Shown here: one piece after another, positions 20,315 through 38,893 of the stretch | Numbering within the stretch: the stretch's first letter is position 1 | Layout: each line of letters opens with the position of its first letter | NCBI GenBank assembly: GCA_026398275.1 | Contig: JAPLTF010000045.1 | Span: 1 to 39,170 of the forward strand | From: Verrucomicrobiota bacterium | Lineage (GTDB): Bacteria > Verrucomicrobiota > Verrucomicrobiia > Chthoniobacterales > Terrimicrobiaceae | Length of the DNA: 39,170 nucleotides | Direction: 5' to 3' | Position numbers and translations under genes: made by a program | Notes under the pieces: generated by a model | What the model saw: the letters and a program-made list of their open reading frames with translations, nothing else | The model's database searches: none | What the model was told of the DNA's origin: nothing

Positions 20315-20413
20315 TTAAATAATATGGCGGGTCATGCAAGCTTCGCACATTTCGGTGCCGAAAACCTCGAAGAAGAGATTGAATGTTTCCTCGGTGCGGT
20401 CGTTGTTGCTCAT
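20315..20413 (-). CDS. Small CxxC protein, 32 residues, last gene of the chemosensory operon
   Basis: A short reading frame beginning [19 protein letters not shown] and ending [11 protein letters not shown]. Its ATG overlaps the stop of the hybrid kinase gene as ATGA, the same 4-bp coupling used by four other junctions in this operon. It ends 17 bp before the miaB stop. The only motif is CEAC (residues 23-26), which could bind metal or form a disulfide; the middle is amphipathic and acidic. There is no signal peptide or membrane segment. I do not recognise a family. The evidence that it is real is the coupling and the sensible composition. It may instead be chance. Confidence 0.5.
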
Positions 20414-21603
20414 GGCGTTGCGGCTACCGGCAGGGTGAACGAGAACGTTGAGCCCTCACCGACCTGGCTCCGCACTGACATTTTGCCACCGTGGCCCTCG
20501 ACGATTTTGCGCGCAATGGCGAGGCCCAGCCCGGTGCTCTGTTCGCCGGCTGTTGCCTGGACGCTGGTCCTGCCAAAAGCCTTGAAGAGCTTCGGCAGAT
20601 CCTCCTCGGGAATCCCCTGGCCCTGGTCGGCGACCGAGACGGTCACCGCGCTTCCGGCGCGGGAGATCTGGATCGCGACGCGGGTGTCGGGATGGGAATA
20701 CTTGACCGCATTCCCGATCAGGTTGTTGAGGACCTGCTCGATCTTTCCGCGGTCGATCATGAGGGCAGGGAGGTTTTCGGTGTCTTGGAAATCGAGCTCG
20801 ATGCGTTTCTGGTGGGCGAGCACGCGGTTGCGCGAGACATTGTGGCGGGCGAGCTCGTTCAGGTCGGCCGGCGCGCAATCCAGATGGAGCTGGCCCGACT
20901 CGATCGTGGAGACGTCCAGCAGCTCGTTGATGAGGCTGAGCATGAACTCGCTGGTGGATTTGATCGTGGAGACGAAGTCGCGCTGGTCCTCGTTGAGAAC
21001 GGGAAACGCCTCGGTTTCGAGGAAGTCGCTGTAGGCGAGGATGACGCCGAGCGGGTTGCGCAGGTCGTGGGCCGCCATGCCGAGCAGGCGGTTTTTTTGC
21101 TCGTTGAGCGTCTCGAGGGCGGCGTTGCGGTCGAGGAGCTGCTTCTGGCTTTCCCGCAGCGCGCGCAGAGCCTCGTGAAGCTGGCGTCTGGCGAGACAGG
21201 CGTTCGCGTGATAGCGCACGCGGGCGATCAACTCGATGGGGTCCGGGAGCTTTACGATATAATCGTTGGCCCCCGCCTCGAAGGCGGCTTTTTTTACGAT
21301 TGGCTCGTCTTTGGCCGAAAGGACGATCACGGGAGTATCCTGCAATTCCGGGATTTTGCGGTAGGCTCTGACAAGATCGATCCCGTCCGTGTCCGGCATG
21401 ACGAGGTCCTGGAGGATGACCGAGGGGCAAATCTTTTTCGCCGTGACGACGGCGAGCGCCGCCTCCGCGCAATAGTGGAAGTCAAACCCCGGCTGGGATT
21501 GCAGAATGCGACGGATGGCCTCGCCGATAAGGGCCTGGTCATCGACGAGGAGGACCATCGCCGTGGAATTTTCGCCGTTCGGGACTGGGGATTGCTGGTT
21601 CAT
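20410..21603 (-). CDS. WspR-type receiver fused to a histidine kinase
   Basis: A 397-residue cytoplasmic protein. Residues 15-135 are a receiver with D21/D22, the phospho-acceptor D66 (ILQDLVMPD) and K118 (IVKLPD). A coiled-coil linker ([15 protein letters not shown]) leads into a HisKA domain with H179 ([11 protein letters not shown]) and a full HATPase domain: N-box [11 protein letters not shown] (293-303), G1 DQGQG (326-330), G2 TGLGLA (357-362). The receiver and linker closely resemble Pseudomonas WspR as I remember it ([33 protein letters not shown]), yet the GGDEF output is absent. From gene order it should receive phosphate from the CheA-like kinase and then control its own kinase activity; the next partner is unknown. 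The start at 21603 gives a 4-bp overlap with cheB; 21621 is also open. Confidence 0.9.
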
Positions 21604-22616
21604 TTTCCGGTTGGTATCCATCGGTTGATTCTCGGGGCCATCGAGGAAAGGGGCAGGATTTCAGAAGCGAATTGAGCAGCCGCTTTGGGCATGCCGAAGA
21701 GAGCCGACGATTTTTCGTCCTGGGCGATGGTCAGAAACCCGGCGTCGCGCATGGCATGGAGCCCTGCGGCCCCGTCTTTTCCCATGCCGGTCAGGATGAT
21801 GCCCAAGGCCTTGCCTCGCCAGTTACGTGCGATGCTCGAAAAAAACACATCCACCGACGGTTGGTAGGCCAGCCCGCTAATCGTATGGTCGTATCGGAGG
21901 CGCGAGCACGAATGGGCCTCGATGTGGCCGTCCTTCCCCGCGAGATAGATGTGGCCGGGTTCGATGAGGTCGCCCTCAGCGACCAGCTTGAGAGGAACTT
22001 TGGCGAAGCCCTTCAGCCACGTGGCCAGGTCTTCGACAAAACGCACGTCGATATGCTGGACAATGACAATTGCCGCGCGGTCCAGCGGGGCGAGGCCGCC
22101 GAGGATTTCAGCGATTGCGGCGGGCCCACCGGCCGAGCACCCGATGGCCACCAGCGTGTCGGTGGCTCCGGCAACCCCGCAGGCGAGGGTCTCCGGGCGG
22201 CAGACCGGCGGTGGTTCAGGTTTGTTTTGTTCGGCGACGATCGCCCCGATCTGTGAGATTTTCTGGAGGAACTCCTTGCGGCTGGAGTCATTCGAAAGCG
22301 AAGGGGTTCTGATCACATCGAGCGCCCCCGCGCCCATGGCTTCGAATGCAAGCGCGCAGTTTCCGGCGATCGAGGCCGTGACGACGAGGATCCCGGTCGG
22401 GCAGGCGCTCATGATCTGCCTCGTGGTTTCGGCCCCGTTGATGCCCGGCATCACAAGGTCCATCAAAACCAGCTCCGGAGTATTCTCCCGGCAGAGCCTC
22501 AGCGCTTCGGGGCCGCTTCTGGCGGTCCACAGCACCCGGTGTTCGCGGGTCGAGTTAAGGGTCGAGGCGATGGCTTGTGTCGCAATGTCGAGGTCGTTGA
22601 CGATTCCTATTTTCAT
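21600..22616 (-). CDS. CheB-type chemoreceptor methylesterase (WspF-like)
   Basis: A 338-residue response regulator that demethylates (and deamidates) glutamyl residues of the chemoreceptor, resetting its sensitivity. The N-terminal receiver has phospho-acceptor D53 ([10 protein letters not shown]). The C-terminal methylesterase domain has the catalytic triad S161 (IGCSAGGP), H188 (IVQHID) and D281 ([10 protein letters not shown]). It overlaps cheA upstream and the receiver-kinase gene downstream by ATGA. In the wsp operon the gene at this position is wspF, whose loss locks the pathway on. Its position and domains fit that role here. Confidence 0.95.
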
Positions 22617-24805
22617 GGGGTTGATTCTTCTCCGAGCACATCCGCGACGGCGCGTGCGAGGCCCTCGTCCTGGAAGCTGCCTTTTGTCAGGTAGTAGTCG
22701 GCTCCGGCATCAAGCCCGCGGAGCCGGTCCTCCTCGCGGTCCTTGTAGGAAACAATGATGACCGGGGTATCGCGGAGCCGCGCGTCGTTTTTGATAAGGC
22801 GCGTGAGCTCGATGCCGTCCATGCGGGGCATGTCCACGTCGGTGACGACCGCAGCGAAACGCCCGGTTCGTGCCGCATTCCAGGCATCCATGCCGTCAAC
22901 CGCCACCTCGACCGCGTAGCCTAGCGAGGAGAGGAGTTTGCGTTCGAGTTCGCGGACGGTGAGAGAGTCGTCCACCACAAGGATCTGGCGTGCGGCTTTT
23001 TCGGGACCGGCGGACTTCGCCGCGATGCCGTGAATCTGCCCGCCGGCGGCCAGGCGCCGGACCGAGAGAAGAAAGTCCTCAACGTCGACCAGCAACATCG
23101 GCGAGCCATCCTCGGTGAGGGCGGTGGCTGCGATGTCGCGGACACGGCCGAGCCGCTTATCCAGAGGTTGAACCACGATTTCACCTTCACCGATAAACCG
23201 GGAAACGACAATTCCGAAATGCCCGTCAGCCGAGGAGAGCAGCAGGACGTTGACCTCTTCGTGTCCATCGCGATCCACTGGGCGGCCGAGGACCGCAGCC
23301 CCATCCACGATGCCGACGCGGCTTTGATCGATATGGATATACTGCGCCCCCTCTATGGATTCGATGTCTCCCGCCAACACCCTGAGGACCCGATCCACCC
23401 TGGCAAGCGGGATCGCATAGGGCTCGCCTGCAATCTCGAAAACGAGCGCCTTCATCACCGAAAGCGAAATCGGCAATTGGAGGAGGAAGGCCGTGCCCTG
23501 CCCGGGTTCGGATGAGATCCGGACCGTGCCGCGGGATTCCCTCACGGCGGATTGGACCACGTCGAGCCCGACGCCACGGCCGGAAATCTCCGTGACTTCG
23601 GAGCGCAGGGAGAAACCGGGGAGGAACAGGAATTCGAGGAGTTCTCCCACGGCCAGTTTTTCGGCGGTCCCGGCATCGGTAAGCCCCTTGGCAACCACGC
23701 GGGATCGCAGATCCGCAGGATCCACACCCCTTCCATCATCACTGACGCGAATCACCAGAAACCCCGCGCTGTGGGAGGCTTCGATAACGAGACGTCCAGC
23801 GGCGGGCTTGCCTGCGGCAGTGCGCTCCTGAGGGGATTCGATGCCGTGGTCGATGGCGTTTCGCACGAGATGCAGCAGGGGGGATTCGATGGAATCCAAC
23901 AAGTCACGGTCCACGTCCGTTCCCTCACCCCGGACCTCAAATGACACCTCGCGACCGAGGCAGCGGGCGGTGTCGCGTGCAGCCCGCCGGAGGGAGGACA
24001 CGATCGCGCCGAAAGGCCGCATCCGGCAGGCCAGAGCCTGGCCGTAAAGCCGCTGGGAGAGCTGGGCGGCATTCCTCTCAAAACGTTCAAATTCCGCAAG
24101 GCCCGTGAGAACGAGCCGGTCGCCCGATTCGATCATTGTCTGCAACTGCTGGAGGGAGGATGTGACATCGCCGCCGCCCGAGGCGGATGCGATCGTGTTT
24201 TCCAATGTTGCAGCCGTCTTCCGCTGGTGGCGGTGGAGACGCCAGAAGTCGTTCGAAAATGCGCAGATGCGCCTCGAAGCGACCAGGGATTCTCCGGCGC
24301 TTCCCAGCAATTGGTCGAGGCTTTCGGCTGCCACTCGCAGGGAGCGGGAGTCATCCTCTGCTTTTACGGTTGGGGCGGCGGATTCGGCGGCGGGGGCTGC
24401 CGCCACCGGTGCCGCAGAGGCTTCGTCCGGCGCTGCGGCTCCGGCCACAAAAACCTCCACCTCGTCCTGTATTTCGGCGGGAGATTCCGCCGAAGCGAGC
24501 CGGCTCAGGAGGTCCACCCCTCGAAGGAGGCGGTCAATCGCGGAACTGCCGAGAACCACCTCGCCTTTTTGGGCCGCGACAAAGGCGTCCTCCATGGCGT
24601 GGGCAACGAGCACAGCGCCCTCGAGCTCGATGATGCGGGCGGCTCCCTTCAAAGAATGGGCGGCGCGCATCAGGGATTCCAAAAGCAAGGGGTCGCCGGG
24701 GCGGATTTCCAGCGCCACGAGGCAATCGCTGAGGATCCGGCACTGCGTCTCGCTTTCCGCCAGAAAGAGTTCGCGCATCGAGAAGCTGCTGAGGTCGCCG
24801 TTCAT
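22613..24805 (-). CDS. Hybrid CheA histidine kinase with C-terminal receiver (WspE-like)
   Basis: A 730-residue chemosensory kinase. The domains in order are a P1 Hpt with phospho-histidine H50 (MRAAHSLKGAAR), an Ala/Pro-rich linker near 120-150 with no CheY/CheB-binding P2 domain, dimerisation and HATPase domains (HLVRNAIDHGIESP, SDDGRGVD, GRGVGLDVV), a CheW-like regulatory domain from about 450, and a C-terminal receiver with D656 (VVTDVDMPRMDG). The missing P2 and the fused receiver are the design of WspE and FrzE-like kinases, not of flagellar CheA. It should be activated by the MCP-CheW array and phosphorylate its own receiver, CheB and the receiver-kinase. The gene lies 4 nt after the second cheW. 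Confidence 0.96.
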   Translation of the reverse strand: MNGDLSSFSMRELFLAESETQCRILSDCLVALEIRPGDPLLLESLMRAAHSLKGAARIIELEGAVLVAHAMEDAFVAAQKGEVVLGSSAIDRLLRGVDLLSRLASAESPAEIQDEVEVFVAGAAAPDEASAAPVAAAPAAESAAPTVKAEDDSRSLRVAAESLDQLLGSAGESLVASRRICAFSNDFWRLHRHQRKTAATLENTIASASGGGDVTSSLQQLQTMIESGDRLVLTGLAEFERFERNAAQLSQRLYGQALACRMRPFGAIVSSLRRAARDTARCLGREVSFEVRGEGTDVDRDLLDSIESPLLHLVRNAIDHGIESPQERTAAGKPAAGRLVIEASHSAGFLVIRVSDDGRGVDPADLRSRVVAKGLTDAGTAEKLAVGELLEFLFLPGFSLRSEVTEISGRGVGLDVVQSAVRESRGTVRISSEPGQGTAFLLQLPISLSVMKALVFEIAGEPYAIPLARVDRVLRVLAGDIESIEGAQYIHIDQSRVGIVDGAAVLGRPVDRDGHEEVNVLLLSSADGHFGIVVSRFIGEGEIVVQPLDKRLGRVRDIAATALTEDGSPMLLVDVEDFLLSVRRLAAGGQIHGIAAKSAGPEKAARQILVVDDSLTVRELERKLLSSLGYAVEVAVDGMDAWNAARTGRFAAVVTDVDMPRMDGIELTRLIKNDARLRDTPVIIVSYKDREEDRLRGLDAGADYYLTKGSFQDEGLARAVADVLGEESTP

Positions 24806-24809
24806 AAGA

Positions 24810-25346
24810 TCATCGCGCCGCCGCGTCGAAGGCCCCGAAGAGAGAGCTCACGTCGAGCCATCCGACTCCCTGTCCGTCCCCGGATGCGAAGATTCCTTTG
24901 ACATGGGTGCGACCCGAAGCCTGCAGGGTTGAGGGAGTGGGCTGGAGGCTGGATTGAGTAAACGCCGACACGCCCTCGGCTTCGTCCACGCGGGCGGCCA
25001 CCCGCCAGCCCCCGTGGGCCAGCACAAGCAGCATCGGCCGGTCCGCAGAGGCTCCGGGCGCACAGCCGAGGACATCGGCCAATGAGAAGCACAGCGTGAC
25101 GGCTCCCCGCACGTTCACGACACCCGCGATAGACGCTCCACGGTGGGGCATCGAATGAATAACAGGAAGCGGAGCCGCGAGCTCCACGTAGGAGGGCTCG
25201 ATCCCGAATCGCTCGCTGCCGACGCGGAATACGAAGAGCATGAGGCGGCCCTCATGGTCGGATGAGGGGGGAGTCGCAGCGATTTCCGAGCGCCAGCGCT
25301 CGCGGTCAGCAGTCCCGGGTTCGCGTTCGAAAAATGCGGCATTCAT
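24810..25346 (-). CDS. CheW coupling protein (WspD-like)
   Basis: A 178-residue coupling protein that links chemoreceptor and kinase. After an N-terminal extension of about 35 residues comes the CheW fold, with LFVFRVGSERFGIEPSYVEL and the conserved core SIAGVVNVRGAVTLCFSLADVLG. Its place, between the CheR gene (4-bp overlap) and the kinase gene, is that of wspD, which also has an N-terminal extension. It is the second of two CheW proteins in the operon and presumably sits at a different place in the array. Confidence 0.93.
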   Translation of the reverse strand: MNAAFFEREPGTADRERWRSEIAATPPSSDHEGRLMLFVFRVGSERFGIEPSYVELAAPLPVIHSMPHRGASIAGVVNVRGAVTLCFSLADVLGCAPGASADRPMLLVLAHGGWRVAARVDEAEGVSAFTQSSLQPTPSTLQASGRTHVKGIFASGDGQGVGWLDVSSLFGAFDAAAR

Positions 25347-26665
25347 TGCGCGGGTGATTTGTTGGCGCGGCGGCGCAAATGGGAGGCCGCACGCCCATCC
25401 ATCTCCAGGAGGAGGGTGAGATGGGTGAGGGATTCATGGTGCGATGGATCGAGATACAGCGCCTTGCGGTAACACGCCTCAGCCAGGTCGCTGCGACCGA
25501 GTGCCCCGCTCACGACCCCGCGGAGGCAGAAGAAATCCGGATCCGCCGAGGCGGGCAGGCGATCGAGCATGGCGGCGGCCAATGCCTCTTCTCCGGCATC
25601 GGCGAGGGCGCGCGCCGCTTCGAGCGAATCGCCGGGTGGTTCCCTATGCACTGCACGGGACGGAGCAGTCAGCTTTTTTAAGGGCGTGCGGACGGGCGTT
25701 TCCTTGAGCTGGTTCCGGGATGCAGCCCCTTCAGGGGAAAATGTCTTTTTTCCTTTCACCCAGGGCGGCGCTGGCGCTTGCCCTGTGCTTTTGGATGCAG
25801 CCCCGTTGGGGCTTGAGCCATGACTCGGACGCGCGGGACGGCGGGAACTGACGGTCCAAGGCGGGGGAAGCGGCTCGATGGGTGCGGCATTTTTCACGCA
25901 GGCGAAGGCCATCGGGAGACCGGCGGTGGCGAAGCCGCATTGCAGTGCGAGAGGCGGTTCGACCGGTCCCAGAAAGAGAATCCCGTCATCGCTGAGCACG
26001 GCACGGAGGCGGGCAACGACAGCGCGCTGTGTCTCCCCGGTGAAATAGATCAGGGCGTTGCGGCAGAAGATCACATCGCTTTGCGGCAAGACCGAAGACG
26101 GGTCGGCAAGGTTGATCATCTGAAAATCGACCTGTTCACGGATCTCATCCGAAACCCGCCTCGCCCCGCCAGGAAGGCTCTCGAAATATTTTCCGAATTG
26201 CGATTCATCAAATCCTGACCGGAACGAGTTGCGCCGGTAGGTGGCGGCGCGCGCGGTGGCGAGAGATTTTTCGCTGATGTCCCCCGCGCGGACCTTGAAG
26301 CTTCCGGGTGCCAGTCCCGCTTCCAGCAGGCGCATCGCGATCGAGTAGGGTTCCTCTCCGGTGGCGCAAGGCAAAGAAAGAACCCTCAGGCAGGCGCCCG
26401 GATGGGCTGGACTCCATGCACTGACAACCCATTCGGCCAGCGCGTCGAAAGCTTCCATGTTGCGGAAAAACCAGGTCTCCGGAACGAGCGAGGACTCGAG
26501 GAGGGCTTTCCACTCGCTGGTGGAAGTGTCCAGTAATCGGTTCGGGTTCTGGCAGACATCGATCGCGCGGCGGATTTCTTTTCGCAGGGAAACCTCACCC
26601 GTTTGGGCGGCGTCAATGCCCGCATGCGAGCGCAGCATTTCCAGGATGGAATCCTCGGAGATCAT
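25343..26665 (-). CDS. CheR-type methyltransferase with TPR domain (WspC-like)
   Basis: A 440-residue chemoreceptor methyltransferase. The N-terminal helical domain (1-75) includes the conserved PETWFFRN. The S-adenosylmethionine-binding domain has LSLPCATGEEPYS (96-108), GDIS (128-131) and IFCRNALIYF (199-208). Residues 345-430 form a TPR-like helical part (FFCLRGVVSGALGRSDLAEACYRKALYLDP in overlapping segments). CheR fused to TPR is the WspC design; the tetratricopeptide part may dock the enzyme. The linker at about 282-316 is encoded by a dispersed nucleotide repeat. The start at 26665 overlaps the cheW stop by ATGA and is preferred to the open frame up to 26770. Confidence 0.94.
   Translation of the reverse strand: MISEDSILEMLRSHAGIDAAQTGEVSLRKEIRRAIDVCQNPNRLLDTSTSEWKALLESSLVPETWFFRNMEAFDALAEWVVSAWSPAHPGACLRVLSLPCATGEEPYSIAMRLLEAGLAPGSFKVRAGDISEKSLATARAATYRRNSFRSGFDESQFGKYFESLPGGARRVSDEIREQVDFQMINLADPSSVLPQSDVIFCRNALIYFTGETQRAVVARLRAVLSDDGILFLGPVEPPLALQCGFATAGLPMAFACVKNAAPIEPLPPPWTVSSRRPARPSHGSSPNGAASKSTGQAPAPPWVKGKKTFSPEGAASRNQLKETPVRTPLKKLTAPSRAVHREPPGDSLEAARALADAGEEALAAAMLDRLPASADPDFFCLRGVVSGALGRSDLAEACYRKALYLDPSHHESLTHLTLLLEMDGRAASHLRRRANKSPAQ
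25719..25822. repeat. Dispersed repeat, copy B, inside a coding region
   Basis: A second, uninterrupted copy of the repeat at 12061-12271. It has the same 28-base core (25761-25788 approximately) and the same closing AGCCCCGTTGGGGCT stem. It lies wholly within the CheR-TPR gene, where it is read in frame on the minus strand as a Pro/Ala/Ser-rich linker (GQAPAPPWVKGKK in its centre). Confidence 0.85.
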
Positions 26666-27114
26666 GCCTCCTCCGAAGTCAGGGCTTCCCAGACGTCCTC
26701 CGTGAGAACGGATGCCGTGTCGAGGCGTTGGATCCATCGATCCCCGAGGGCCGCAATGCGACCCGCGCATGGAAAAGAGACCGCGCGGGCACCAGGCTCG
26801 ACAAAATCGCTCTCCTCAAATGCCTGCACGCGCGTGACATTTCCGCCCAGCAGTCCGAGGACGCGATCGCGGCCGCCGATGGCGAGGCGCTGCAGGATGA
26901 TGCGCGTGGAGAAGCGGACAGGAGACGGAGTTCCGGCGAGAAGGATGCCGCAGTCAACGACCGGCACCGGGCTGCCGCGATAATTGAGGATCCCCGCGAC
27001 AGATCGGGGCGCACCCGGGGCGGATTTCAGCGAGGCGCAGGGAACGACCTCCACGACGGAAGCCGATGCGACCGCGTAGGTATCGGTGCCCGCATCCATC
27101 AGAACGTAGAGCAT
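26662..27114 (-). CDS. CheW coupling protein (WspB-like)
   Basis: A 150-residue CheW-domain protein, essentially the bare fold: an N-terminal strand ([15 protein letters not shown]), then SVAGILNYRGSPVPVVDCG in the conserved receptor-binding region, and a C-terminal helix. Its ATG overlaps the chemoreceptor stop (TGATG), and its stop overlaps the cheR start. The position directly after the receptor gene is that of wspB. It should couple receptor and kinase. Confidence 0.92.
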   Translation of the reverse strand: MLYVLMDAGTDTYAVASASVVEVVPCASLKSAPGAPRSVAGILNYRGSPVPVVDCGILLAGTPSPVRFSTRIILQRLAIGGRDRVLGLLGGNVTRVQAFEESDFVEPGARAVSFPCAGRIAALGDRWIQRLDTASVLTEDVWEALTSEEA

Positions 27115-28712
27115 CAGCCTGGGAGTTTGAAGCGGGAGATGCCGCTTTGGAGGCCGCTCGTGGCTTCGTTGAGCTGGTCGATGGCGCGCGAGCTGTCGCG
27201 GATGCTGTCGGCGGTGAGGCGGGCGGCCTCGCCGAGCTGTGTGAGCGCCTCGCTGATCTGCTGCGCGCCCTGGGTCTGGGAGCGCATGCCCTCGTTCACG
27301 CTCTCGACGCTCGGGGCCAGCGACTGGACCTCCGAGATCACCCGGTCGAGCTGCGTTCCCACGGCGGCGATCTCCGTCGCACCGCGCCGCAGCTCCTCCG
27401 CGAATTTATCCATGCCCATGACGCCCGCGCTGACGGCGCTGACCATTTCCTTGACCATCTGCTCGATGTCGCCGGTGGAGGCGGCGGTCTGGTCGGCCAG
27501 GCGGCGGATTTCGGTGGCCACGACCGCGAATCCCCGTCCGTATTCCCCGGCTTTCTCCGCCTCGATGGCGGCGTTGAGGGAGAGAAGGTTCGTCTGGTCG
27601 GCCACCTTGCCGATCGTCGAGACGACCGCGTTGATGTTGCCGGCCTTTTCGTTCATCACGCCCAGCTTTGAAGTGATCCCGACCGAGGCTTCCAGAATGC
27701 CGCGCATGATTTTTTCCATGCGGTCGAGGCCCTCCTTGCCGCCCGACGCCATCTCGCTGGCCTGCTCGGCCACCGCGCTCACGCTGTCCGCCGTCTTCAG
27801 CAGCTCCGAGCTTGTCGCGCTCATCTCCTTCGCGGTCGCGCTGATCTCCGCCGATGTCGTGGCCACTTCCCCGGCGGTCGTCTGCTGCTCCTTGGTGGTG
27901 GCCGCGATCTCCACGGTCGAGCTGTTGACCTGCAGGCCGCTGCGCTGCACCTGCCCGATCAGCTCAGAGAGCGAGGCGATCATCGCTGCGAAGCTGCGCG
28001 AGAGCGAGCCGATCTCGTCGCCGCGCGCCGTGTCGCCGAGCGAGATCGTAAAGTCGCCGCCAGCCATTTGGCTTGCCGCCGCTTCGATCCGGGAGAGAGG
28101 GATCGTGATATTCCGCGAAACGATCAGGCCGACGATGGCGACGATGATCAGAGCGATTGGTGCCCCGAACAGAACCAGGCGCTCCAGCTGAAGAGCCGAG
28201 TCGCTGGTTGCCTTGTCAACCGCATTGAACTCCGCCATTTCCAGGCTTTTGAGGTGTTCGATTGCCATGAAGAGCCGCTCCATCTCCTTGGAGCTGCGCT
28301 CCACGCTTTCCGTGAGCCCGGCTGCCTCCCTGTCCTCAGCCTCGGTTTTCAGCTGAAGCAGCAGGGACTTGCAGATCGAGTCGATGCCGGCGATTTCCTC
28401 GCCGCGCCCGTCGGCTGCGGCGGAAGAGCGCAGCGCCTGAATTTTCGTTTCGAGCAGGGGCATGGCCTGCTCAAGCTGCGCGAGGTGGGCCCGGTTGCCC
28501 GTGACCAGAAACTGTCGCTGCCCGTCCTGCCCGTCCACAATGAAATCGTGAAACGCGTCGAGCCTGGCGATAAAATCGCGCTCCTCCCCGGCTTCGTGAA
28601 AATTTCTTTCGAGCTGCCTGACCGAGAGGAAGGACGATATGGAGAGGGCGACGATGGCGAGGAACGCGACCGCGTAGCCGGCGAAGATTTTGGTGCCGAT
28701 AGTGAGTTTCAT
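27114..28712 (-). CDS. Methyl-accepting chemotaxis protein (WspA-like)
   Basis: A 532-residue membrane chemoreceptor. TM1 is at about 9-29 and TM2 at 179-199. The extracytoplasmic part between them is a helical, CHASE3- or four-helix-bundle-like sensor with a QRQFLVTGN segment. A HAMP domain (about 200-252) and a long helical signalling domain follow. The hairpin tip reads [20 protein letters not shown] followed by [16 protein letters not shown]. The segments [17 protein letters not shown] and the end SGISRFK strongly recall WspA as I remember it. There is no C-terminal CheR-tethering pentapeptide. The start at 28712 puts TM1 at the N-terminus; the frame is open to 28775. First gene of the operon; a promoter was not securely located. 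Confidence 0.95.
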
Positions 28713-31668: not shown

Positions 31669-34600
31669 CTATTTGTGCTTCGCAGCCTCCGCCTGAGCTC
31701 GGACGAAGAGGCGCGTCTGCCCTTTGGCAAAGGTGCATTTGAATGTTCCGCCGGTGTATGTTGAGCCATCGAATGCATCGGTCCATCGGCCATCACCCGG
31801 AAATTCCAACCTCACGGTCCCAGCCACCGGGGCCGTAACCGAGACGACCCCTTTCGCGGCATTGACAACATAACCCACCGGCGCATAGCAGCGTGCGCCT
31901 GATGAGAGGACAAAACTCCTCACGGCTTCTACGTTGGTCAGTGGTAGAGCGCTCCATGTCAGCGAGCCTTCGCCTTGCAGCGGTCGCCCGGCCCCGCCCG
32001 GTGGCCGGTCCGCAGGATTGGCAGAAACGTAGGTGGCCCAGCCTGCATCTTTGGCTGTGGCATAGGGATTTACCGGACCCGCATCTACGAGAATCGAACC
32101 GGTTGCGTTAGCCCGTAAGATGCCTGACCGCGTTGCGGCGTGCGTTGCCACCGGCAGTCCCAGCCATTTGGCCGGTGCATCCAAACTCCATTGCTGTGAC
32201 AGTGGATTGATCAGCCCGATCGATCCAACGGCTAGAAACGTGCGGCCTCCCTTCTCGATGACGCCGGAAAGCCTGGCAAGGTCTTCGGGATCGGCGGCCA
32301 CCGCGTTGGCAACCACAACCAGCTTTACGCTCTCGGGCAATTTGGCCACATCCGAGAGAAGATAGACTCCAATTGGCGCTCCCAACTTGGCCACCGCAAA
32401 GAGAAAGTCGGCGTTGGACAACTTGAAGGATTTCGAGTGCGGGGTGACCCAGGCAAAACTGGTGTCGTCTATGAGGAATCCGATTTCAGGCTGAGGGGTT
32501 CGGTCCCAGCCCAGCGATTCGGCTTGGATCCGGTGCATGGAGGCAAACTCCCGCTGCAATTGTTCGTCATCGTGCCAGCTGCTCAACAGCGAGTACCAGT
32601 AACGGCTAATGCCATTCACCACATCGTCGGCCAGGATCCGTCGATTCATGGTAATTGCCCCCGCCCGCGGATCGTTCGGATCGAAAAGGGTGTGCCAAAG
32701 CCCGTGATGGAGCCACGAGAACAGGTCGTTTTCGTTGAGGTATGCTTTGCCCGCAAGCCGAATGCTTGCCGTGCAGCCACCCTGTGACACAAAGGCCGCC
32801 TCCAAGGCGTCAGGGATTGTGCGGAAGTTGTGAAGAGGAACGCCGGCGAGGAAGTCGATCTGAGGATCGTCGAGCAATTGACGCAACGCAAAATGGCCGG
32901 AAAGACTCTGGCGAGGCTCGCCAGCCAGCTGGACGGTATAACCGTAGAATGCCCCTGCCAGAAGCTGCGGCGCAGATTCTTTGGACACATGCGCGAAGTA
33001 GCTTATTGTCTCCGCCGTCGAGTCGGAAATGAACTGCTGGTAGGCGGCCGCCCGCCGTCCCGCGTCGGTATCCGGATACAAATCGGTTCCAGAAATCATC
33101 CTTTCTTCCGGAGGCGGAATTTCTTTCCACGGAAATCCTTTGGCCTCACACCATCGGATGAAAGCCTGTTGTTGGATTGGCGAATAGTCGCCGCACAGCG
33201 TGTCATTAGACGCCCAGGCGAACCATTCTTCGGTCACCCCACCCATCAACAGTATTCCAACCACGCGGTTGGCCCATGGCTGGCTTTGCACGTATGCGAT
33301 GAGCGTCCGGAGGTTCTTGGCCTGTTGTTCGCGCCATGCCGAAGATGTGAACGACGCTGCGATCCCTCCCGTTTCCTCCCAGACGATGTCCTTACCATCC
33401 TTGCGCACAAGGACACGATCCTCCGGGTGTTCCTTGAACCATCTAGGCGGCAGGCTCAGGGAGACGCGAAGCAGCAAGTTGGCCTCCGGGTTGGCCGCCA
33501 GCGCCATCGCCGCATATTCATCGAGTTGTCGAAAGTCAAAACTCCCGTCGGGCTGCCATGTGGGCCGGGTGACGTTATGCACGTGACGTCCCGCGTTGGT
33601 CACGAGCGAAAACAGGTTGGCTCCATGTTTGCCGAATTGGTTGACGTTGCCCGGCATAAAGTCAAACGTCGCATAGCCGCTCCATGGCATGGGCTTTCCG
33701 TTCTTCAGAAAGGTTGGAACCCCATTGACCACCTTGCGCTTCATCTCGGGAAATCCGGGCTTCGATTCGTTGACAATCTCGATCCCCATGGGACTCGCCT
33801 GCAAGCGTCCCGCACGACCGACAAGGCTGACTGATGCCTTCCTCGACGGCAAATACTCTGGCACCTTGCGCCGGATTTCCGCCTCCCCTTTCTCGACAAG
33901 CGCCAGAACTTCCTGCTCGCTCAGTCGGATCCTCCACAAAGTCCATCGACCGTCTTCGACCTGCAGATCGAGCTGTTCTCCGGCAACAATTCCCTGCGCT
34001 TGCACAGAAAGAACAGCTTCCGCCCCGGCCGTGAGAGGACCGCTCCCCCCGAGAGTGGCCATGCGCGGGTCTGTTCCGTATTGGACCCGCAAGTTTGAGA
34101 AGGCCATTTTGTAAGTCCGTCCGGCTTTGGGGTCACGAACAACAAGCGCCAGCGTCACCGGCTGCCGAAGTTTTTCGCCTCCTGAGTTTGGACCAAAGTC
34201 AAAAGTCACTTCTTGGGATTGCCCGGGGGAAATCGCCGGAGCACCCGCGGCGGGTGCGCTCAGCGGCTTTCGCGCCTGGTCGGTCCACCAACCCACCTCA
34301 CTGACAATGCATGCCACTTCCACCGGAATATCTCCATCGTTGCTCACCGTCAGCAAAACCTTTTGCGGCACCTGGTTCAGACGCTCGTCAACGGTGATCA
34401 TTGCCGGCGGACAGGGATCCTTGTCGAATCGAAATTCCCATTCCGCGGCCGGAACGCCCTTCCTTTCCACCAGCTCAAACCGGTGGGTGGCAAACTTCGC
34501 CGCTCGCTCCAACGGATTTGCCAGAGCAGGCTGAACCCCGCATAACGTCTCAAAAACCGGCAGCGAATCGACCGTCGGACGGACGTAGGCGTCGCTCGGA

Positions 34601-34719
34601 TATTCTGTGCCCTCCGAAAGACAGGAAAACGTTGATGCAAAGATAATCAAGGGACAGGCCAGCCAGGCTCTGAACCAAATGCTAAATATGGTATTCGACT
34701 GATTAAAATGACGCTTCAT
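31669..34719 (-). CDS. Secreted GH42-like glycoside hydrolase-type protein
   Basis: A large exported protein (1016 residues) with a hydrophobic signal segment (FRAWLACPLIIFASTF) about 15-35 residues from the chosen start. The first 350 residues look like beta-sandwich domains. A TIM-barrel-like part follows: GVPTFLKNGKPMPWSGYATF, then a barrel with WQPDGSFDFRQLDEYAAMA, LLLRVSLSLPPRWFKEHPED and GILLMGGVTEEWF, which resembles the GH42/beta-galactosidase-type clan GH-A fold. A beta-galactosidase trimerisation-like domain may follow (PEIGFLIDDTSF onward). Catalytic glutamates and substrate are not certain. ATG 34812, 5 nt after the upstream stop, is an alternative start with 31 more residues before the signal. 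It is probably co-transcribed with the pseudopilin-like gene. Confidence 0.7.
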   Translation of the reverse strand: MKRHFNQSNTIFSIWFRAWLACPLIIFASTFSCLSEGTEYPSDAYVRPTVDSLPVFETLCGVQPALANPLERAAKFATHRFELVERKGVPAAEWEFRFDKDPCPPAMITVDERLNQVPQKVLLTVSNDGDIPVEVACIVSEVGWWTDQARKPLSAPAAGAPAISPGQSQEVTFDFGPNSGGEKLRQPVTLALVVRDPKAGRTYKMAFSNLRVQYGTDPRMATLGGSGPLTAGAEAVLSVQAQGIVAGEQLDLQVEDGRWTLWRIRLSEQEVLALVEKGEAEIRRKVPEYLPSRKASVSLVGRAGRLQASPMGIEIVNESKPGFPEMKRKVVNGVPTFLKNGKPMPWSGYATFDFMPGNVNQFGKHGANLFSLVTNAGRHVHNVTRPTWQPDGSFDFRQLDEYAAMALAANPEANLLLRVSLSLPPRWFKEHPEDRVLVRKDGKDIVWEETGGIAASFTSSAWREQQAKNLRTLIAYVQSQPWANRVVGILLMGGVTEEWFAWASNDTLCGDYSPIQQQAFIRWCEAKGFPWKEIPPPEERMISGTDLYPDTDAGRRAAAYQQFISDSTAETISYFAHVSKESAPQLLAGAFYGYTVQLAGEPRQSLSGHFALRQLLDDPQIDFLAGVPLHNFRTIPDALEAAFVSQGGCTASIRLAGKAYLNENDLFSWLHHGLWHTLFDPNDPRAGAITMNRRILADDVVNGISRYWYSLLSSWHDDEQLQREFASMHRIQAESLGWDRTPQPEIGFLIDDTSFAWVTPHSKSFKLSNADFLFAVAKLGAPIGVYLLSDVAKLPESVKLVVVANAVAADPEDLARLSGVIEKGGRTFLAVGSIGLINPLSQQWSLDAPAKWLGLPVATHAATRSGILRANATGSILVDAGPVNPYATAKDAGWATYVSANPADRPPGGAGRPLQGEGSLTWSALPLTNVEAVRSFVLSSGARCYAPVGYVVNAAKGVVSVTAPVAGTVRLEFPGDGRWTDAFDGSTYTGGTFKCTFAKGQTRLFVRAQAEAAKHK

Positions 34720-34817
34720 AAGCTGATTTGTGATTTGCTTTCCCGCTCCGGGAGTTTCTGCGCCGTTCGCTTCTATGGAATTGGTGTGTTTTTCGGTGTC
34801 AGCAGTGCTCATGGTGA

Positions 34818-35591
34818 TTAGCGCGCCAAAATGGAAAAGTTTTCCTCTTTGAAATCGTCTGTCCTTATTGCAGCAACATGACCGTCGAGAAAAAGGCAGG
34901 TAATAGAATCGCCAGACCAACGGGGCCCGGACCAATGCATGGGATCGATTCGAACAAACGAGATCCAGGCCTGAAAATTCAACCCTATACTCGGATTGGG
35001 GCCAGCGACGATACTCAGGCTTTCCATACAAACGATCTGTTGGGATGGCAAATCAATGGCTGGGAACGGCCGGGGACTGTTCAAACCGGAGACCCAGTCG
35101 CCTTGATCGGCCGGCAGAGCTGAGGTCTGATACCAAACCCAACCAAATCCCGCCTCGATCCGGCAAAGTTCGCCCGGCGATTCATCCTTTCTCTCCCCGG
35201 TGAAAAGATTTGGCACGTCGTCCCAGATTCCCTTCGGATATTTACTGCTCCATGGCGTGTAGCTGGGGTTCCAGAACATCTTGGCCGAGCCGCCTGTGTA
35301 ACGCATGAGGTAGTGGCACCACCAGGCTCTATAGTTTCCGGTCAGTTCGGGATCATCGCCCATGTTGATGAAATTAGTCGGCAAACATCGGCCTTCGTTA
35401 TCGGCTAGATAGGCAGAGTGGGCTCCTCCAATTGCCTTTAAATATGAAATCTTTTGCGCCGATCTGGCCGCAGACATCGCTTTCTGCGTCCCGGCATAGC
35501 CAAGGGCAGCCAAAATCGCAACGATGGTGATGACCGCCAACAACTCGATCAAAGTGAAGCCTGTGTTGCCCTTGGCGCATCGACTACACAT
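34818..35591 (-). CDS. Prepilin-type N-terminal domain protein (pseudopilin-like)
   Basis: A 257-residue protein with a type IV prepilin leader: a short basic leader, then GFTLIELLAVITIVAILAAL, which would be cut by prepilin peptidase after the first Gly and methylated. The C-terminal part has the LFLDGHVAAIRTDDF ending of the DUF1559-like (H-X9-DG) pseudopilins that occur in many copies in Planctomycetes, Verrucomicrobia and Lentisphaerae. Its role there is not established; a surface or secretion-related function is inferred. The start at 35591 places the leader at the N-terminus, with the open frame going on to 35672. It sits inside the hydrolase cluster, between two glycoside-hydrolase genes. 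Confidence 0.88.
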   Translation of the reverse strand: MCSRCAKGNTGFTLIELLAVITIVAILAALGYAGTQKAMSAARSAQKISYLKAIGGAHSAYLADNEGRCLPTNFINMGDDPELTGNYRAWWCHYLMRYTGGSAKMFWNPSYTPWSSKYPKGIWDDVPNLFTGERKDESPGELCRIEAGFGWVWYQTSALPADQGDWVSGLNSPRPFPAIDLPSQQIVCMESLSIVAGPNPSIGLNFQAWISFVRIDPMHWSGPRWSGDSITCLFLDGHVAAIRTDDFKEENFSILAR

Positions 35592-35752: not shown

Positions 35753-38700
35753 TCAGCCAGCGGACCATGTTGGCAATTGAAAGAGTCCAAAGTCCTTCAG
35801 GCAATAGGCTTCGCCAGGCTGTGGGCCGTTCGGAACATCACCGCCGTGCCAGAAGATTCCCCATCCGTGCTTGGGCAGCAGATCGGGCTTATGGAAAGGT
35901 CCAAGCAGATTGCAAGGCAAGCCGGTGATTTCGATTGCAAATTCCTCTGGATCGGTCGGGGCGACGGCATACTCCAGACTTGGACCATAGGTTTGGTGAC
36001 GCTTTTCTCCGAAAACCACTTCAATGAGGGAGCCATTCCAAGCGGGCTTATCGAACAGCAGGGTTCCTTTCCCCGATGGCCGCCGGAATCGATAGGAAAC
36101 CTTACGATCGTAGAAAGGCATTCCCTGCCTGGCCCATGGGCCGAGTCCGATGGGATTCCCGGCGGGAGCGAGGACAAAGCCCTGGTTGGCGGGGCGAACC
36201 GAAAAATTCCCCCAAAGATAAATTTGGTCGATTTCCTGGCGGACATCAAACGGGTGGCCTATCAGATGGATGGAATTGTCGCCCGGTCGCAGAAGGTGTC
36301 CTGCGGCCACGCGCTGGATCCGCCAATCCAGCCAGCGTGATCCCCTGCTGGTGTCGAGGGGATGTCCGTTGATTTGGATCTGCCACTGATCCGGGCATTC
36401 GAAGCAAAGATCAATAGAAGCCAAATCGGTGCCGGGTAGGATTGTTGCGGTGTAGCATGCGGTGCCGCCGCTCTCAGGTCGCATGCGCAGGTTTGCGGAA
36501 ATCACATGATCGCGGTATTGGATCACATTTGTCCAACCGTTGGTTTCCATGCCGTTTTGCTCCCAATAGATGCGGTTGGACTCGTAAACAAGACGACGGG
36601 GAAAACTTTGTCCGCCCACATCCAGGGCGCAATTGTCGATCACGAGCACATTGGGATCGAGAAGTTCGGCGCCGAGAAACTCGACCGGCGACTCCTTTCC
36701 CCTGTCCGCACAAACCAAGGCGCACGACGGCACGGCAGGAGGCAAAGCTGTTCCTTTCCGGGCAAAAAAGAGTATCTGCGCATCGCTGGCTGGAATCCGC
36801 AACTGCCCATCGAAAGGATGGATCAGTCCCGTCTGCGGATCAAGCAGCCGGCCGCCATTCGTATCATCGGCCGCTGACAGGCTGGCGGACCAGTCTGAAG
36901 GCGATGAGTTGACAATCAAATAATAAACCCCCTCCTCGCATTCACGGCGTTGATGGGCAATCCCCGACATCCCTGCGGTGGATATTTTCAAACGTGGCGG
37001 AACCAAGGCGACAACAAGAGCGACCAACTCCTCCGGAGAAGCAGCCCACTGCACCGGGAGGTGATCGGGCCATGCATCGGGACGACCATCCAGCCACGCC
37101 GTCACCGGTCGCACTCCGAGGATTTTTCCACCGTTTGCAGCGAAATCCACGAGCAATTTGAGGGACGCAGACCTCAAATTTTGAAGCCCTGGCGGCAGGA
37201 CGACGAGTTGGTAAGTTTGCTCACCGACTCTCATTTGATCGGCCTCGACGCTCGCCGACTCCGCCAAGACGTATTCATCGCCGATATCGAAATCTGCCTG
37301 AGCGTCGGACAGGGCCTGGGCAAACTTTGACGTTGCCCGCCGCAAAGGGAGGACACTGCGCTGGGTGCCCGCGAAAGCGGTCCGCATATCGGTCAGGGCG
37401 TCATGCGCGGGCTGGCCTCCTGAAGTTCCGAGATCTGCCACGCAGTCCGATTTGGCCGAGAGGCAATAGCCGGTCGTGAGCGGATCGACGACAAGAATCC
37501 TCTGGCGGGTTTTGCCGTGAGCGGCAAGCCACGCAAGGCGCGCGAGTTCGTCATTGAGGGGGCCGAGCGCATCGAACCAAGGGCTCTGCTCGCTAAAAAA
37601 CTGCGGATGATCCTTTTTACGGGCGCCACGGATGGTGGTTGTCGAGTAATGGGGCACGAAGAGGTTGACCCCATGAACGGCAAGAAACCGTCCGATGCGA
37701 AGCCAATCGAGCGGAGTGGAGTCGTGGCCGCCCGCGCCCCAGCTTTCGTTCATCACCCGCTTCTTGCCAAGTTGGTTCGCCACCGACTGGACCTGCTTGA
37801 GGAAATAGAGGGCATGCGCCTCGGTGCCGGGCTCCGTCGGATCCACGTTCTGCGGATCGCCGTAGTCGTGACCTTCGAGCGCAAAGCATTCGAGCAGGTC
37901 GGTGCCCGGCCAGTCCGTGTGAGCAAGGAGATGAACGTGGCCCGGGGTGGCGTAGGGACAAGGCCAATCGTGCTCGAGGTAGTGGCCGGTGAGCGGGATG
38001 CCGTTCTCGTGGCACCAAGCTTCGAGTGGCAGGGCGAAGTTCTCCATCCACAAAGCGTGGAGAGTCTCGTAGAAATCAAATCGTGTCGCAGCGCTGGTCG
38101 GCGAGTCAAAGTAAAGATCAGCCAGGACAGTCTCGATCGGGTAGTTGTGACGCCGAAGAAACTCGGCCTGGACCAAACGGCTGAAATGCAGCCCGGGTCC
38201 CCATGGCCCGTGCGAATCCGCCGTGAGATGCGGCTCGTCGGTGAAAATCGCAGCACAGGTTTTCCAGTCCTCCGCGCCGAGTTCATCCCGGTAGCGGTTG
38301 TAAGTGGTTTCCAGAAAGGTCTGCGTCGTTTTTGGGTCGAGCAGGCTCGTGTAAGGAAATTCCCCGTGCCAGGACATCGGCGGCATCCGCTCCATTACAA
38401 ACGCACACCAATTAGCCCCATCTTGTAGCGTGCCGGGCTCAACCATCTCACACGGAATCCCATTTTCCGTACGATAAACCGCCAGAGCATCGCTGGGTGG
38501 ACGCTCGGGCAGGGCACCAAATTTCGGGATGAGAAACCGGGCCGTCGTTTGAGGGGCAAGAGCAGGAACATGCCCGCCCGCAAATCCGCTGGGATAAGAG
38601 TTTTCGTCGTAAAGGGCCGGCACCAACCCCAATCTACGGCACTCGGCGATGCAATGGCGGATGACCTCGAACCAGCGATGGGAAAGATATTCCGTGATAA

Positions 38701-38893
38701 GCCCCGGCCGGGGATGCAGGAAAACACCACCGTATCCAACGCGCGCGAGATTTTCCAGCAACTCCGTGAGCCTTTTCTCCCCAGGACCGGTCTCGTATTC
38801 GTCGTTCAGGACAAAAAACGGCCAAGGACGGAAACTGTTGGACGGGTTGGAAAATCCAGCGAGGTAACTGGGAAGCGTTTGCTCTGTTGTCAT
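35753..38893 (-). CDS. Large glycosyl hydrolase, GH106-like
   Basis: A 1046-residue protein without a signal peptide. Its N-terminal half looks like a TIM-barrel hydrolase: FRPWPFFVLNDEYE (21-34), GYGGVFLHPRPG (53-64), LVPALYDENSYPSGFAGG (90-107), IFTDEPHL (216-223, with E220 a candidate acid) and MNESWGAGG near 405. These are typical of proteins filed under glycosyl hydrolase/GH106-type alpha-L-rhamnosidases. The C-terminal half has a beta-galactosidase-like flavodoxin-type domain (LVVLPPGLQNLRSASLK) and beta-sandwich carbohydrate-binding parts (DWRIQRVAAGHLLRPGDNS). Rhamnosidase activity is supported by the GH78 gene in the same cluster, but the family is not certain. It lies 161 bp upstream of the pseudopilin-like gene. 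Confidence 0.7.
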   Translation of the reverse strand: MTTEQTLPSYLAGFSNPSNSFRPWPFFVLNDEYETGPGEKRLTELLENLARVGYGGVFLHPRPGLITEYLSHRWFEVIRHCIAECRRLGLVPALYDENSYPSGFAGGHVPALAPQTTARFLIPKFGALPERPPSDALAVYRTENGIPCEMVEPGTLQDGANWCAFVMERMPPMSWHGEFPYTSLLDPKTTQTFLETTYNRYRDELGAEDWKTCAAIFTDEPHLTADSHGPWGPGLHFSRLVQAEFLRRHNYPIETVLADLYFDSPTSAATRFDFYETLHALWMENFALPLEAWCHENGIPLTGHYLEHDWPCPYATPGHVHLLAHTDWPGTDLLECFALEGHDYGDPQNVDPTEPGTEAHALYFLKQVQSVANQLGKKRVMNESWGAGGHDSTPLDWLRIGRFLAVHGVNLFVPHYSTTTIRGARKKDHPQFFSEQSPWFDALGPLNDELARLAWLAAHGKTRQRILVVDPLTTGYCLSAKSDCVADLGTSGGQPAHDALTDMRTAFAGTQRSVLPLRRATSKFAQALSDAQADFDIGDEYVLAESASVEADQMRVGEQTYQLVVLPPGLQNLRSASLKLLVDFAANGGKILGVRPVTAWLDGRPDAWPDHLPVQWAASPEELVALVVALVPPRLKISTAGMSGIAHQRRECEEGVYYLIVNSSPSDWSASLSAADDTNGGRLLDPQTGLIHPFDGQLRIPASDAQILFFARKGTALPPAVPSCALVCADRGKESPVEFLGAELLDPNVLVIDNCALDVGGQSFPRRLVYESNRIYWEQNGMETNGWTNVIQYRDHVISANLRMRPESGGTACYTATILPGTDLASIDLCFECPDQWQIQINGHPLDTSRGSRWLDWRIQRVAAGHLLRPGDNSIHLIGHPFDVRQEIDQIYLWGNFSVRPANQGFVLAPAGNPIGLGPWARQGMPFYDRKVSYRFRRPSGKGTLLFDKPAWNGSLIEVVFGEKRHQTYGPSLEYAVAPTDPEEFAIEITGLPCNLLGPFHKPDLLPKHGWGIFWHGGDVPNGPQPGEAYCLKDFGLFQLPTWSAG

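Follow-up and report, generated by a model that had tools for sequence, protein, structure and literature searches.

A Wsp-type chemosensory operon of Verrucomicrobiota with a histidine kinase joined to a WspR-type receiver and stalk

Judged from its sequence, the window (the whole stretch of 39,170 nucleotides analysed here, from a Verrucomicrobiota bacterium) contains a genuine Wsp-type operon with a WspR-type receiver and stalk, and in its terminal protein these are followed by a histidine kinase. The operon probably encodes an array of the Wsp type, the type assigned to alternative cellular functions, in which CheA passes phosphate to a histidine kinase controlled by its own Rec domain and this kinase acts on an unlinked regulator.

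Seven close-packed genes on the minus strand (28712-20410) encode an MCP, CheW, CheR-TPR, a second CheW, CheA-REC, CheB and a REC-HisKA-HATPase protein, which is exactly the order of wspA-F,R (Table 1). ORF and Pfam domain calls bear out the gene order and domain content given for all seven in a preliminary description of this DNA, and the junctions it listed hold when computed with the likely start codons: the MCP stop and the first CheW start overlap by 1 bp at 27114; overlaps of 4 bp join CheW to CheR (26662-26665), CheR to CheW (25343-25346), CheA to CheB (22613-22616) and CheB to the REC-HK gene (21600-21603); and a gap of 4 nt (24806-24809) separates CheW from CheA. Starts at 28712 for the MCP, 26665 for CheR and 21603 for REC-HK (M7 of the longest ORF, invariant in homologues) are better than those of the longest ORFs. 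The periplasmic part of the MCP gives a weak CHASE3-like match, and the TPR match of CheR (E 1.8e-5) falls slightly below the Pfam cut-off. About 420 nt from the operon on its 5' side is a gene for an alpha-L-rhamnosidase in the same orientation. On the 3' side the neighbour of the REC-HK gene is miaB, which is convergent, so the REC-HK gene is the end of the operon. Promoter and terminator scans gave no usable match. Elsewhere in the window, a 1120-aa ORF without a Pfam match (31669-35031) is situated between an alpha-L-rhamnosidase gene and another ORF of rhamnosidase type (35753-38893).

Table 1. Genes of the operon and parts of its terminal protein (residues numbered in the 403-aa ORF).
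Feature	Position	Strand	Details
MCP, WspA-like	27114..28712	-	longest ORF to 28775; 2 predicted membrane segments, HAMP, MCP signalling domain
CheW, WspB position	26662..27114	-	
CheR methyltransferase with C-terminal TPR, WspC-like	25343..26665	-	longest ORF to 26770
CheW, WspD position	24810..25346	-	
CheA hybrid, WspE-like	22613..24805	-	Hpt, HATPase, CheW-like, C-terminal REC
CheB methylesterase with REC, WspF-like	21600..22616	-	43-47% identity to Pseudomonas WspF
Terminal REC-HisKA-HATPase_c protein, WspR position	20410..21603	-	longest ORF to 21621
WspR-type receiver	21214..21555	-	phospho-Asp D72, Lys K124
WspR-type helical stalk, residues 128-174	21100..21240	-	aligned to 3bre/3i5a through residue 174
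HisKA (DHp)	20893..21099	-	H185 in HDLRNP
HATPase_c catalytic domain	20422..20754	-	N and G boxes

A CheB profile search found 80 named loci, mostly wsp operons of Pseudomonas and Burkholderiaceae with the same gene order; identity to Pseudomonas is mostly 44-49% for CheA, 49-57% for the C-terminal signalling half of the MCP and 58-64% between the terminal receiver and that of WspR. Against the PDB, the receiver and stalk of the terminal protein match WspR (3bre/3i5a, 191/184 bits, best E 3e-55), whereas the best non-WspR receiver reaches about 59 bits and PleD 48 bits. In a receiver tree of 108 rows, which included receivers of CheA and CheB proteins and 39 others from the window's genome, the 56 Wsp terminal receivers, among them those of the window, WspR and WspH, form one clade (100/99) apart from all of these. 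Both the PDB match and the tree thus identify the terminal receiver as an orthologue of WspR. Within the clade the window groups with L076/L077 (100/92) and L049 (100/97), and the REC of the window CheA falls in the CheA-REC clade (100/100). The base of the terminal-receiver clade forms no resolved order in this tree, which gives no direction to the exchange (GGDEF lost here versus gained in Proteobacteria). The test of WspR against generic receivers that the preliminary description had proposed came out in favour of WspR.

The terminal protein consists of REC (residues 23-136), HisKA (175-243) and HATPase_c (290-400), all above the Pfam cut-offs and with intact kinase catalytic motifs. This agrees with the complete kinase described before, whose H179, counted from M7, is H185 of the longest ORF. 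The WspR-like linker is equally real: similarity to WspR runs unbroken to residue 174, where HisKA begins. AlphaFold predicts a single helix from residue 128 to 203, leading from receiver alpha5 into the DHp domain (mean pLDDT 80.9, pTM 0.45). As had been noted, the window has no GGDEF domain, and none occurs on its contig.

In the kinase tree, which has long branches, the HisKA-HATPase region of the window forms a group with those of L076, L077 and L049 (99/95). This group lies outside the clade (96/86) that holds the hybrid kinases of other Verrucomicrobiota operons together with generic kinases, and it is far from WspH. A tree constrained to unite the window kinase with the hybrid kinases was rejected, marginally, at p-AU 0.036. 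The tree thus indicates that the window kinase joined the receiver separately from the kinase of Burkholderia WspH; the marginal AU rejection makes a separate origin from the hybrid kinases probable without proving it.

The conserved receiver lysine and the kinase histidine are 61 residues apart in the window group, 68 in the hybrids and 33 in WspH. All three lengths equal 5 modulo 7, and the chance that two further lineages match the first in this way is 1 in 49. By these lengths the three kinase lineages join the receiver at one heptad phase, and the fusion is heptad-consistent. In Rec-controlled kinases the helix or stalk lengths are multiples of seven, and in LvrB a coiled coil forms when Rec is phosphorylated, which releases the catalytic domain (PMC13269768); the shared phase and the continuous predicted helix agree with both this rule and this mechanism.

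The outputs of related operons were surveyed in 388 genomes of the phylum. CheB of this type (E<1e-100) was found in 26 of them beyond the window's own, with a search profile made from kinase-type operons, so that the sample may be biased. None of these 26 operons has GGDEF as its terminal domain; the linked GGDEF protein in relatives that the preliminary description had considered is therefore missing both here and in the phylum relatives. Instead, five have REC-HK outputs, mostly with an additional receiver at the C-terminus; in 15 the protein ends in a region of about 245 residues; one has a lone receiver, and five have no regulator directly after cheB. Where scanned with Pfam (L052, and also the deltaproteobacterial L106), the 245-residue region is a SpoIIE phosphatase, and the receivers of proteins with SpoIIE-type outputs largely cluster together. 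REC-HK-REC proteins also occur in G006, G009 and G012 of the same family and in G054 of the same order. REC-GGDEF is the usual terminal gene in Proteobacteria and in a small number of other groups. Any GGDEF domain at all was found in only 141 of the 388 genomes, which marks the phylum as poor in cyclic-di-GMP enzymes.

In Mariprofundus (L078:7013-8508) the gene after REC-GGDEF encodes a receiver that clusters with those of phosphatase type, at which point the contig ends, and in L014:7228-10150 a REC-HK-REC comes directly after a REC with a short Cys-rich tail; such tandem terminal receivers of the Wsp type are possible intermediates of output exchange. The Cys-rich motif, PICSxCKxIRxDxNYW..., follows the Wsp-type receivers of L014:7228-8058 and L124:5037-5879 and has no Pfam match. 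The operon at L220:7041-17261 has two consecutive MCP genes and a cheB without a following regulator gene, so its output must be unlinked.

Identities of the terminal protein and of the adjacent miaB product are discordant. REC-HK is 75-77% identical to the window in G439/G440 and 58% in G255, whereas MiaB reaches only 62% (G439), 58% (G440) and 47% (G255). The same-family genomes G006, G009 and G012 have MiaB at 74-75% but REC-HK at only 45-47%, and the same-genus genomes G001-G003 (MiaB 75-83%), whose contigs end near miaB, have no REC-HK at E<1e-60. The operon thus departs from the species tree, and by this comparison horizontal transfer inside the phylum is its probable origin. The cheA genes of the two closest relatives each contain one in-frame TAG, at different positions (L218:10184-10186, L219:2826-2828). 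Recoding was rejected because TAG terminates other genes there; it is unlikely, and these codons are more probably nonsense mutations or assembly errors.

We would give roughly even credence to a wider reading: that, except in Proteobacteria, the Wsp array serves as a platform independent of cyclic-di-GMP with exchangeable outputs, that histidine kinases were coupled to it, always at one coiled-coil phase, at least twice independently in Verrucomicrobiota (three times if Burkholderia is counted) and a SpoIIE-type phosphatase elsewhere, and that the operon moves horizontally together with its output.

In the proposed mechanism the state of the receptor would set how active CheA is, and CheR-TPR and CheB would adapt this activity. 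Phosphorylated CheA would hand its phosphate to the terminal protein at D72 and thereby alter receiver pairing. The signal would then pass along the retained WspR stalk, as one coiled-coil helix continuous with DHp, and switch the kinase domain, which would phosphorylate or dephosphorylate an unlinked response regulator. We infer the phosphate flow, the sign of regulation, the partner and the stimulus.

One rival reading makes the terminal protein an ordinary hybrid kinase with a generic receiver that adjoins an unrelated chemosensory operon; in its favour, REC-HK proteins are widespread and hybrid kinases are numerous in this genome. Such an arrangement is extremely improbable: the tree contradicts it, receiver and stalk are of the WspR type, and the gene shares 4 bp with cheB and holds this position across genomes. 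Bifunctional HisKA kinases use an acidic residue adjoining the histidine and an asparagine at +4, and the HDLRN motif retains both. The terminal protein may accordingly serve mainly as a phosphatase or sink, so that receiver phosphorylation driven by CheA shuts the kinase or triggers dephosphorylation of the regulator. The two precedents differ in direction, CheS3 being inhibited and LvrB activated; the former favours a phosphatase and the latter activation. We consider this version unlikely, although it is the most serious of the alternatives.

The pathway could also still end in cyclic-di-GMP, with the kinase as an added relay step. By domain searches for orphan regulators, the genome has 51 receiver matches, 11 of them far from any kinase, and its only GGDEF protein is a REC-GGDEF-EAL on another contig (G000:C75:45806-47635, also L045:9807-11636). 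This protein bears a receiver and has no kinase on its contig, so that REC-HK might phosphorylate it. Yet it is kept in most family members searched, is present in the same-genus G002 and G003, both without the operon, and missing from G439, G440 and G255, which share REC-HK, and its receiver lies outside the WspR clade. Since it is inherited independently of the operon, a dedicated partnership is unlikely, and the relay as a whole seems to us improbable. The single-domain receiver C68 does not co-occur with the operon either. Thus neither candidate supplies the co-conserved orphan regulator that had been suggested; co-occurrence covered these two, out of a set that also holds NtrC-type, LytTR and other orphans. 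A role in flagellar taxis is unlikely: the genome, 98.7% complete, has only three CheW domains and no FlhA-family match, which makes this the sole array found and one unlikely to steer flagella.

The exchange of a diguanylate cyclase for a kinase, which the preliminary description read as a rewired Wsp pathway, has precedents. In the Burkholderia Wsp H-system (WspH/WspHRR), reported from Burkholderia only, the DGC module is replaced by a histidine kinase, and an unlinked OmpR-type regulator, RowR/Bcen2424_1436, is proposed downstream (PMC4324302, PMC8552884). HisKA-HATPase domains occur on about 40% of the response regulators in CheR-TPR/ACF clusters, according to a survey that gives architectures and does not appear to resolve Wsp orthology or independent kinase origins (PMC3447774). 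With WspH, CheA3-CheS3 and this frequency published, the window operon is ordinary within a known kind and adds modestly to its evolution. New here are a kinase lineage separate from WspH and probably from the hybrid kinases of relatives, a heptad phase shared by three lineages, and the probable horizontal acquisition. The signalling principle is already known; what is gained concerns breadth and evolution, not a new mechanism. A 2021 survey described Wsp as exclusive to beta- and gammaproteobacteria; kinase-output Wsp systems now extend beyond Burkholderia, one array type feeds different output modules, and the natural set of receiver-stalk fusions bears on the question of how a single receiver can act on cyclase, kinase and phosphatase outputs.

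The window operon resembles the surface-sensing Pseudomonas R-system (WspA-F, WspR) in gene order and in the WspR-type receiver and stalk, and differs in its output, HisKA-HATPase instead of the GGDEF enzyme that makes cyclic-di-GMP. With the Burkholderia H-system it shares the Wsp array and the fusion of a WspR-type receiver to a histidine kinase rather than GGDEF. WspH, however, is a separate unit lying upstream, has no WspR stalk (Lys-His 33 versus 61) and carries a kinase of a distant lineage; the window protein has neither a WspH-like kinase module nor the stalkless upstream arrangement. A kinase-output strain, Burkholderia cenocepacia NCTC13227, also has an unlinked CheB-REC-GGDEF pair (L188:7240-9460); in the tree its receiver joins the linked WspR of Paraburkholderia (100/97), and L162 and L163 have similar REC matches. 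The surrounding 19 kb has no MCP, CheW, CheR or CheA match, and the pair may supply the diguanylate cyclase that the H-system lacks or be a relic of an R-system. In the Che3 system of Rhodospirillum centenum, CheA3 was shown biochemically to phosphorylate CheS3-REC1, and only phosphorylated CheS3 phosphorylates CheY3 (PMC3868531). A CheA that targets the receiver of a second kinase is what we propose for the window; unlike the window protein, CheS3 is a REC-REC-PAS-HWE kinase, and its CheY3 is encoded within the cluster. LvrB has the same Rec-stalk-DHp-CA layout with a heptad-spaced stalk; here the lengths 33, 61 and 68 agree with one another modulo 7. Unlike the window protein, LvrB is not described within a chemosensory operon.
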